Below are positions 27,490-30,727 of a stretch of DNA of 64,000 nucleotides, piece after piece. Within the stretch, counting starts at the first letter, position 1, and each line of letters begins with the position of its first letter. Under the pieces are notes generated by a model. That model did no database searches, had not been told where the DNA came from, and was given only the letters and a program-made list of their open reading frames with translations. The stretch comes from Candidatus Gastranaerophilales bacterium (GTDB lineage: Bacteria; Cyanobacteriota; Vampirovibrionia; Gastranaerophilales; Gastranaerophilaceae): NCBI GenBank assembly GCA_944323145.1, contig CALURJ010000001.1, positions 124,001-188,000 of the forward strand. Reading direction: 5' to 3'. The position numbers and the translations under genes were made by a program.

Positions 27490-27590
27490 TAGAAACGTGG
27501 CAATTAAATATTTAGAACCATTTATCCCAATAGAATATTTTTTTGCCTCAACCTTTTTAAGGATAATATTTGATAATTGCATATAAAAAT

Positions 27591-27663
27591 GCCGCGTTAG
27601 CTCAGTTGGTAGAGCAAGGGACTGAAAATCCCTGTGTCCTTGGTTCGATTCCGAGACGCGGCA
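27591..27663 (+). tRNA. tRNA-Phe (anticodon GAA)
   Basis: The cloverleaf is complete: acceptor GCCGCGT/ACGCGGC, anticodon arm AGGGA-CTGAAAA-TCCCT with GAA, and T-arm CTTGG-TTCGATT-CCGAG. The 3' CCA is not encoded; a T-run follows at once. Confidence 0.97.
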
Positions 27664-27742
27664 TTTTTGTTTGTAAATTTTTATTAACTAACGGCAAAAT
27701 TTTTTATTTTTAGTGTTTCAATAGAAATCAGGAGAAGTATTA

Positions 27743-30727
27743 ATGATTCAGAAAATTACTGCAGGTTTTGATAAAGCTACATGTTTCAGGTATAATTTTA
27801 ATAATAATATTTCTGTATCCGAAAATAAAAATTCATTTGAGGATAAGTCTTACACATCTGTTCCACTAGACTTAAATAAAATTTATTTCATTCCGTTTTT
27901 AGGAAAGAAAACAGATAATGCCTCCGGCGGATCAAAGATGTCAAAGCTTGAAAATATTATGTATTACTCTGATACCCCAACTAAAAAAATGATTTCTTCT
28001 TTGAAGGAGGATGCTAAAAAATCCGGCTTTGATAAGATAACTACTTTGCATGTTATCAAAAATTCTCTTTTGCAGCTAAACAATTATATTGATAAGTTGG
28101 ATAGAGGTGAAGAGGAATTTACTTCTGTAGATGAACATCCTTATATTGCGGATATTATATCAAAACAAGCTTCATCAGAGCTGTTTACAAATATTGGTTT
28201 GAGAAAAAATTTAAAACAACTTGCTTTAAATTATATTACTATTATTGATAGCACCCTTAATAAAAATAGACCTGAAAAGCCTGATTTATCCGGTAATATA
28301 ACTTTATCTGACGACCTTACAGACGCAATTTGGGGTACAAGAAAAGAAGATGATCCAATTGATGTTGATATGTTTCTTGAAGGGGCATTAAATAGCCCAG
28401 ATGAAATAACCTCAAATTTGGTTAATGCTTTATTTTCAAAGTTATATTATTTGTCAATGATTGACAGTAAGCCGGATGACTTGCGAACCCCTTTTAGTGT
28501 GTATAATAAGAAAGCAGAAAATGTTTTAAAAAATCTTGCACTTGGTACAAATATTTACGTAACTTATGATCATACAAAAGAGATTCCTCAGCCATTTATA
28601 GACACTATTAGGAAAATTATAGATGATAGCGGCAAAAATATTTCGATTACAGAGTTTAGTGAGCATGCAAAACCTGATTATTTTTGTCAGGTTGTAAATA
28701 GGCTTAGTAGAAATAAGTCAAAAGAGCATATTGTGATAGCAAATCCTGTTCAGATGATGTTATCTTGCAGTGAACAGAAAAATGGAGTTGCAACTATTAA
28801 GCTCCCTGAAAATCTTTTGCATGTCGTTACAAACCCGCCGGCAAATATAAAATATTTGTTTTATTCTTCGAAAGATAACTATTATGCATTCTCCTCAAGT
28901 ATGAATTTGTTCTCTGATTTTCAAGAAGCAGCAATGCCTACTTTATCAACGCAACAAATGGTAAAATCATTTAAAGAAAATCCTGTTTTAATGAATAGTA
29001 TCACGAAGCAGTTTTCAAAAAATGCTTTAGAAAAAGTTGTTGAGGCTTCTGCACAGCTTGACGGAGCTTTCCCTCTCAAGACCGTAAATCTTATGAAAAA
29101 GATTGTAAGCTATTACATAGATAAAAAAGATATTAACGAAGCTGATGTAACAGATTATTTGAAAGAGGCAACAAATTTATTTAAAAAGTCCTCGGATGAC
29201 GGGTCTGTAGAAATAACTTTTGATACCGGTAAAAAACTTAAAGATTTGGTAGGTAAAGCCTCTACTAAAAAAGAGGCTGCATCTCTCGTAAAACAGATTA
29301 AATCAAATAAAATGGGCACCAAAGGGATAATTATATATTCTCAGGATGGTTTCCCGGGAAGCGGCAGAAGATATACGGCAAAAGCAATCGCCGGAGAAGC
29401 AAGAGTTCCTTATATTGAAATTAATACAATGGACTTTGGTACTAAAGAGGTTGATCTTTTTGGTGGCGGGGCGCTTTCACCGGAAGCTTCAATGAAAAAA
29501 TTATTTTCTATTGTTGATACTCAAGCGGAAGCTAATTCAAATAAATCGGCAGTACTTTTTATTGAGAATTTTGAGTATTTTTCAGTGGGCGAAATGGTTT
29601 CATTATACCATCAAAAGGCAATGGCGCAGTTGCTGAGAGAGATGGAAAAAGCGGATAAAGCAGGCTTAAATATTTTAGTTGTGGGTTCTGTTTCTAATCC
29701 AAAATTAATTGGAGAAGCTGCAATGAAATCATTTAAATTTGTTGATAGTGTAGAAATTTCCTCTCCTGCTTATAACAAAATTGAACGAGCTGAAATCCTC
29801 AGACAAGCTTTAAAAGATGCGAAAGTAAAACTGGCAGGTAATTCAGAGGAACAAAATAGTACGATTGAATCTGCTGCAAATATTGCTCAGGGATTCCCAT
29901 TTATATATTTAAAAAATCTGGTTAAAAAGGCTCAGTCTGTGGCATTAGAACGTGGGCATAAAGCTTTGACCAAGGCCGATTTTATTGAGGCCTACCTGCA
30001 GATTACTACAGGAAGACCTGCTGTTTCACATATAGAAGAGCATGAAAAACATGTTGTTTCTTCCCATGAATGCGGGCATGCTACTAACCTTGAAGTCATG
30101 AATAATATAGCAAAAACAATTGGAAAACCATGGCATATTCCTGACAAAGTTAATTTTATAACACTTGATCCGAGAGGTGTATATGGCGGTGCTGTTTACC
30201 ATGGTAGAGACAAAAACAAAGAAATGTCATTTGAAAATATTTTTGCATCGCTTGTTTGCTCATTTGGCGGCAACTCAGCAGAGAATTTATTTTTCGGAAT
30301 GGACGGGTCGTTAGGAATAAGCGGTGATATGGAATCAGTAAGGTATTACGCTGATTTGATGGTTAAGGCTTTCGGTATGGGGGCAAATACAGGGAAAATG
30401 GTAATTGACCAGAATGAAGAATTATCCGAAAATTTAAAGTCTTCGGTTGAAAAAGACGAGAAAGTAATTATAAATAATGCCAAAATAGCTTCTGATTTAA
30501 TAACAGAAGTTTATGCTGATTTCAATAAGCAATTTACGGCAAAATATGCGCCTCTTGTCGGAACTGGTGAGTGTATTTTGGATGGTGATGAATTCAGAAC
30601 GGCTTTGAGTAAATGGAAATCTGAACAAACGTCTGAAAAACAAAAAGAGTTAAAACTATGTGATGAGGCTATCGTAAAGATTATTAATGCAACTAAAAAA
30701 GGGATTGCGGTAAGAAAAGAAAATTAG
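27743..30727 (+). CDS. FtsH-like M41 zinc protease with degenerate AAA+ module and long N-terminal extension
   Basis: The 994-residue protein is unlike normal FtsH (about 600-700 residues with two N-terminal TM helices): there is no hydrophobic anchor. The C-terminal zinc domain is convincing. It has HECGH at 775-779, the third ligand Asp862 in GISGDMES, and A-F-G-M-G after M-V-K. The AAA part is related to FtsH by layout but its key residues are gone. The P-loop reads GFPGSGRR at 536 (Lys to Arg), the Walker B position reads LFIEN at 605-609 (Asp-Glu to Glu-Asn), and the second region of homology lacks the two Arg fingers. Residues 1-530 are unrecognised and may contain another AAA-like fold around 200-450. 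The start follows AGGAG. Confidence 0.75.
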   Translation: MIQKITAGFDKATCFRYNFNNNISVSENKNSFEDKSYTSVPLDLNKIYFIPFLGKKTDNASGGSKMSKLENIMYYSDTPTKKMISSLKEDAKKSGFDKITTLHVIKNSLLQLNNYIDKLDRGEEEFTSVDEHPYIADIISKQASSELFTNIGLRKNLKQLALNYITIIDSTLNKNRPEKPDLSGNITLSDDLTDAIWGTRKEDDPIDVDMFLEGALNSPDEITSNLVNALFSKLYYLSMIDSKPDDLRTPFSVYNKKAENVLKNLALGTNIYVTYDHTKEIPQPFIDTIRKIIDDSGKNISITEFSEHAKPDYFCQVVNRLSRNKSKEHIVIANPVQMMLSCSEQKNGVATIKLPENLLHVVTNPPANIKYLFYSSKDNYYAFSSSMNLFSDFQEAAMPTLSTQQMVKSFKENPVLMNSITKQFSKNALEKVVEASAQLDGAFPLKTVNLMKKIVSYYIDKKDINEADVTDYLKEATNLFKKSSDDGSVEITFDTGKKLKDLVGKASTKKEAASLVKQIKSNKMGTKGIIIYSQDGFPGSGRRYTAKAIAGEARVPYIEINTMDFGTKEVDLFGGGALSPEASMKKLFSIVDTQAEANSNKSAVLFIENFEYFSVGEMVSLYHQKAMAQLLREMEKADKAGLNILVVGSVSNPKLIGEAAMKSFKFVDSVEISSPAYNKIERAEILRQALKDAKVKLAGNSEEQNSTIESAANIAQGFPFIYLKNLVKKAQSVALERGHKALTKADFIEAYLQITTGRPAVSHIEEHEKHVVSSHECGHATNLEVMNNIAKTIGKPWHIPDKVNFITLDPRGVYGGAVYHGRDKNKEMSFENIFASLVCSFGGNSAENLFFGMDGSLGISGDMESVRYYADLMVKAFGMGANTGKMVIDQNEELSENLKSSVEKDEKVIINNAKIASDLITEVYADFNKQFTAKYAPLVGTGECILDGDEFRTALSKWKSEQTSEKQKELKLCDEAIVKIINATKKGIAVRKEN

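Follow-up and report, generated by a model that had tools for sequence, protein, structure and literature searches.

A Gastranaerophilales family of putatively soluble Hsp100-FtsH chimeric zinc proteases with degenerate ATPase domains

Introduction

FtsH is an ATP-driven, membrane-bound protease. The locus studied here raises the question of what such an enzyme becomes when its ATPase residues and its anchor are both missing. The window analysed is a stretch of 64,000 nucleotides from a Candidatus Gastranaerophilales genome (contig CALURJ010000001.1, positions 124,001 to 188,000), and a gene on its forward strand (27743..30727) encodes a zinc protease of 994 amino acids. An initial annotation, made from the sequence alone, described it as FtsH-like, with inactivated ATPase motifs, no membrane anchor and a novel, unrecognised N-terminus of about 500 residues. 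We re-examined each of these features in the protein, in its relatives and in their genomes.

Gene structure and domain content

The open reading frame starts with ATG and is preceded, 8 nt upstream, by the ribosome binding site AGGAG (27730..27734, + strand). In order, the protein comprises an N-terminal tail, a Clp-type N-domain, a dead D1, a dead FtsH-type D2 and an M41 protease domain, all encoded on the + strand. The tail (residues 1-64, 27743..27934), delimited by pLDDT values below 50 and by alignments, is disordered, rich in N, S, T and K, and ends in PFLG; F52 within this motif is an invariant or near-invariant column of the family alignments. Residues 490-757 (29210..30013) form the FtsH-type AAA domain D2, as indicated by Pfam, fold and motifs, and residues 765-990 (30035..30712) form the M41 domain, as indicated by Pfam and fold match. 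Pfam AAA matches residues 536-664 (E 1.6e-10) and Peptidase_M41 matches residues 764-914 (E 2.2e-15). No named family model fits, and the NCBIfam equivalog for FtsH, TIGR01241, spans residues 498-908 at 111.6 bits, far below its cut-off of 600. In the full-length structural model, D2 and M41 together match FtsH (Z 28.2 to 3kds_F, apo-FtsH).

The prediction of a protease is supported. The HECGH motif (residues 775-779, 30065..30079) and the third zinc ligand, Asp862 (30326..30328), align with the zinc ligands of solved FtsH proteins, and HE[CAG]GH and the Asp ligand are retained in all 44 aligned family members. The absence of a membrane anchor is likewise supported by the structural model and by hydropathy: the KD19 maximum is 1.05 in this protein and 1.46 across the family, compared with 2.71 in the FtsH of the same genome, and no transmembrane stretch with such values was found in the protein or its family.

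Loss of the ATPase motifs across the family

The state of the D2 motor was tabulated for the 44 aligned members. In the window protein the Walker A remnant reads GFPGSGRR (residues 536-543, 29348..29371), with Arg542 in place of the P-loop Lys. This replacement by Arg is found in 44/44 members, and a search for GxxxxGK[ST] in 42 family sequences returned none; the D1 of the window protein lacks the motif as well. The glycine loop of Walker A is kept in the core clade. The Walker B remnant is VLFIENFE (residues 604-611, 29552..29575), where Asn609 replaces the catalytic Glu. This second acid is replaced in every member, by Asn in nearly all and by His in L067. The first acid was also thought to be lost, which does not hold for the core clade: its Walker B is hhFIENFE, with Glu (Asp in L009 and L021) at the first position. 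Since this residue is kept, nucleotide might still bind and have a switching role. Members of the remote clade have E, N or S at the first position and N or H at the second; three of its proteins (L070, L071, L075) have lost the first acid too and have a reshaped P-loop. Standard Arg fingers are absent from 44/44 members, the stretch corresponding to RPGRFD being KSFKF in most of the core clade (residues 662-666 of the window protein, 29726..29740). The sensor-1 Asn is mostly replaced by Ser, and the pore-loop Phe is retained in 37 of the 44.

The inactivated state of the AAA module, defined by the missing Walker A Lys, catalytic Walker B acid and Arg fingers, is thus a shared property of these relatives. 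Sequencing or assembly error as its source is ruled out by its recurrence at 35 loci and in 93 genomes.

The N-terminal half resembles an Hsp100 protein

At the level of Pfam the N-terminus is indeed unrecognised: no model, Clp_N included, matched residues 1-490 above cut-off in 33 members. At the level of fold it is not novel. The full-length model has a mean pLDDT of 79.8, with residues 1-64 disordered, and a pTM of 0.45, at which the arrangement of domains is not reliably predicted. Modelled alone, residues 60-497 gave a pLDDT of 88.6 and a pTM of 0.82. The closest folds to residues 66-482 are Hsp100 proteins; residues 237-482 match Hsp104 (5vy8_A) with a Z of 18.7 (229 residues, 2.7 A), and a second structure comparison lists ClpA, ClpB, ClpC or Hsp104 in each of its 50 rows. 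The N-terminal model also superposes in domain order with ClpA, ClpC and Hsp104.

Profile comparison points the same way. With hhalign, residues 72-111 pair with the beginning of the Clp N-domain (score 42 versus at most 18 for shuffled columns) and, further along in the same order, residues 368-457, approximately, with the D1 sensor and lid. Altogether, the N-domain and D1 profile alignments score 42-43, whereas 30 column shuffles reach no more than 21. The family N-terminus aligns with that of the related proteins L058-L060 (probability 98.2%, E 5.6e-14), which in turn aligns with Clp D1 (93.1%, E 3.1e-7). One of these relatives, L058, clears the cut-off of Pfam AAA_lid_9 (28.4 versus 22.8 bits), the lid of Clp D1.

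By model and profile, residues 237-482 (28451..29188) are therefore assigned as an Hsp100 D1 (NBD1) without Walker motifs. The assignment of residues 66-236 (27938..28450) as a Clp-type N-domain, based on hhalign and model superposition, has moderate support and is the weaker of the two. A new N-terminal domain was ruled out by these fold and profile comparisons.

Selection on the dead motor

Mean pairwise identity among 33 members is highest in D2 (67%), followed by M41 (56%), D1 (43%), the N-domain (28%) and the tail (24%). In close pairs dN/dS is 0.01-0.07 for D2 and below 0.2 for M41, and the zinc ligands and catalytic Glu are invariant in 44 members down to about 40% identity. The family is under strong purifying selection, and the dead D2 is its best-conserved domain and no decaying relic. 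This degree of conservation implies that the dead motor has a selected role.

Relatives with live motors

Soluble M41 proteins with an intact D2 motor do occur, all of them outside the degenerate clade. Two (L058 and L060) carry the intact D2 behind a dead D1, and five (L061-L065) are of a short soluble type with 725-756 aa. Relatives with intact motifs had been named as grounds for rejecting the inactivation claim; being paralogues outside the clade, they instead show the direction of change and leave the claim in place. A second, partly degenerate paralogue is L059:2714-5413, from the same genome as the intact L058; it keeps GSGKT with the P-loop Lys and has lost the Arg fingers and pore loop.

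The 44 degenerate proteins form a single clade in the maximum-likelihood tree (SH-aLRT/UFBoot 97.4/98), with the partly degenerate L059 as their sister (100/100). Their deeper grouping with L058 and L060 has weak support (37/80). On the simplest reading of these sequences, and with the long branches as a caveat, the D2 motor would have been lost once, after loss of the D1 motor; most likely this happened within a soluble FtsH-like protease lineage that already carried a dead D1.

Distribution and genomic context

With a match threshold of at least 500 bits, 93 of the 382 genomes sampled from the class Vampirovibrionia carry the family. All 93 belong to the Gastranaerophilales, 91 of them to the family of the source genome (Gastranaerophilaceae) and two to a second family of the order; no other family of the class had a match in this sample. 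No member was found outside the order among 194 genomes sampled across the phylum. When one genome per species was scanned, 35 loci were recovered, for the most part under the labels Gastranaerophilales or uncultured bacterium. Two records are assigned instead to Clostridiaceae (L022) and Acinetobacter (L027), which we infer to be binning or naming errors.

Within the source genus the gene is patchy (9 of 26 sampled genomes), and fragments of it are left in two genomes (G249 and G275). It lies mostly downstream of a tRNA-Phe gene (27590..27664, + strand, in the window), and in eight genomes of the genus this site lacks the gene and has other contents. The site, which lies downstream of infC, is variable across the loci L145-L152 of the genus; its other contents include a phage-type integrase (L149), a SocA-like protein (L150) and a methylase with endonuclease VII (L151). 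Such varied contents indicate that the site is a hotspot and that the protease gene behaves as an accessory gene. A scan of viral contigs with two peptide patterns revealed no relative that would point to a phage origin. No conserved operon partner was found across 47 loci, and no neighbour is kept across genera. In one lineage the protease gene overlaps, at its 3' end, a gene in the same orientation for a tail-bearing DEAD-box/DSHCT (Ski2-like) helicase (L032:7810-10464, L035:7825-10518).

The source genome also encodes a separate canonical membrane FtsH of 632 aa (G000:C19), which the initial annotation had suggested looking for, as well as ClpC and two ClpB-like proteins. The presence of two ClpB-like disaggregases (L109 and L110) besides ClpC in one small genome was noted, together with a stand-alone Clp_N repeat array without an ATPase (L111:760-2055, G000:C14), a counterpart of which is found in relatives.

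Most family members begin with a tail rich in N, Q, S and T that follows the pattern M-[KINQR]-I... and has [VIP][STN]F[KTGN][GA] at its end. It also heads unrelated proteins of the order, for instance mTERF-like, HNH, acyltransferase-like, amidohydrolase and unknown proteins (L014:4598-5713, L015:1679-2329, L133:17464-18129, L137:7817-8743, L148:2262-2693, L151:1523-2188). The protein at L137:7817-8743 is an mTERF-domain protein (Pfam E 1.3e-9) in a bacterial genome. With the protease family included, the tail motif occurs at a frequency of 9.7% at residues 1-65, compared with 1.5-3.3% later in the sequence; without the family, enrichment in the source genome is weak (5.1% versus about 3%). 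The tail is possibly a sorting tag.

Mode of action and alternatives

Both motors have lost essential residues but the proteolytic site is retained, and on these sequence grounds the protein probably degrades proteins without ATP. We consider it reasonably likely that it is a soluble, ATP-independent caged protease of the FtsH (M41) lineage fused to an Hsp100 front end. Its subunits would form a ring as those of FtsH do, with the dead AAA layers acting as a passive gate and substrate-docking scaffold, and the Clp-type N-domain may recognise substrates or adaptors. Chains that are unfolded, disordered or have been unfolded beforehand would diffuse or be handed to the zinc protease ring and be cut there without ATP hydrolysis. 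ATP-dependent work could be left to the canonical FtsH that the genome has available.

It had been suggested that a protease of this kind would need another driving partner or act only on unfolded peptides. The latter agrees with the reading above; for the former, no partner is evident. If the protein sat in a mixed ring to regulate it or to confer specificity, the power stroke would come from a live AAA+ partner such as canonical FtsH, ClpC/ClpB or a live soluble FtsH paralogue. Organelles and cyanobacteria commonly have FtsH rings of mixed composition, plant FtsHi act in mixed complexes (PMC9020784, PMC8197885), and the dead-motor family is present in 10 of the 11 genomes that encode the short live paralogue. 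However, 83 of the 93 family-bearing genomes have no soluble FtsH paralogue with a live motor, which rules out an obligate partner of that type; canonical FtsH sits in the membrane and has a much wider distribution than the family, and no partner gene is linked to the protease gene at the 47 loci. We regard a mixed ring as unlikely, and give a slightly lower probability to a nucleotide-locked switch, in which D2 would bind ATP or ADP without hydrolysis, its catalytic Glu being Asn, and binding would set the protease gate. The first Walker B acid and glycine loop of the core clade and the extreme conservation of D2 are consistent with such a switch, and LonC still binds nucleotide (PMC3391209), but the loss of the P-loop Lys is invariant and the three remote-clade proteins described above have dropped the first acid and reshaped the loop.

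It is very improbable that the shared tail delivers the protease and other tail-bearers to another compartment or cell where ATP-independence would help. Delivery would fit the recurrence of the tail on unrelated Gastranaerophilales proteins, some of them encoded in accessory loci, and the accessory and patchy nature of the protease gene; yet tails of the same kind are found on live AAA+ FtsH paralogues and on the DEAD-box helicase, which need ATP, and the enrichment outside the family is weak. AAA+ paralogues that lose catalytic residues can take structural roles, and the protein might accordingly be a relic, or have a structural role only, and not act as a protease. The invariant zinc ligands and catalytic Glu and the low dN/dS of M41 speak against this, and we give it hardly any credence.

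Setting the ATP-independent protease reading in a wider frame, we propose tentatively, at somewhat less than even chances, that the Hsp100-FtsH fusion had both its motors switched off in turn, that the dead rings were selected as a fuel-free gate and recognition scaffold, and that the family represents a new class of AAA+ protease and the first ATP-independent branch of FtsH.

Relation to known systems

The family shares with FtsH/M41 proteins an FtsH-type AAA domain followed by M41 with HExxH and an Asp ligand, but differs in having no transmembrane anchor, in its lost ATPase residues and in the Hsp100 module in front. With Hsp100/Clp proteins (ClpA, ClpB, ClpC, Hsp104) it shares the folds of the N-domain and D1 and their order, whereas its D1 has no Walker motifs and its FtsH-type D2 carries its own fused protease, with no ClpP pairing. 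The nearest parallel in design is LonC (MtaLonC), a hexameric AAA+ protease with a dead ATPase that degrades only unfolded proteins, without ATP (PMC3391209). LonC proves that a dead-motor design is workable in another AAA+ protease family (PMC3391209), and by analogy it may be so here. Both combine a degenerate ATPase module with a retained protease. However, LonC has a serine-lysine Lon protease, for which the window protein has no Pfam match, and a different AAA module; its ATP-independence is biochemically shown, that of our protein only predicted. Plant FtsHi present the opposite case (PMC8197885): these chloroplast FtsH paralogues have also lost one of two activities, but it is HExxH that is lost and the ATPase that is kept. 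The family is thus best read, by analogy, as the FtsH counterpart of LonC and the mirror image of plant FtsHi.

Open-access literature on pseudo-ATPase FtsH, Clp-FtsH fusions and Gastranaerophilales proteases yielded nothing on point, and no curated model, solved structure or paper describing the family was found. An AAA+ protease with a dead motor is a known kind, as in LonC; as far as this search reaches, the Hsp100-FtsH architecture and the FtsH case are new.

A strongly selected protein family of gut bacteria related to cyanobacteria, which has kept its protease and lost its anchor and two ATPase rings, offers a natural experiment on the roles of AAA rings beyond hydrolysis, such as gating, assembly and recognition, with the live-motor relatives in neighbouring lineages as matched controls. 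LonC for Lon and the present family for FtsH suggest a repeated evolutionary route.
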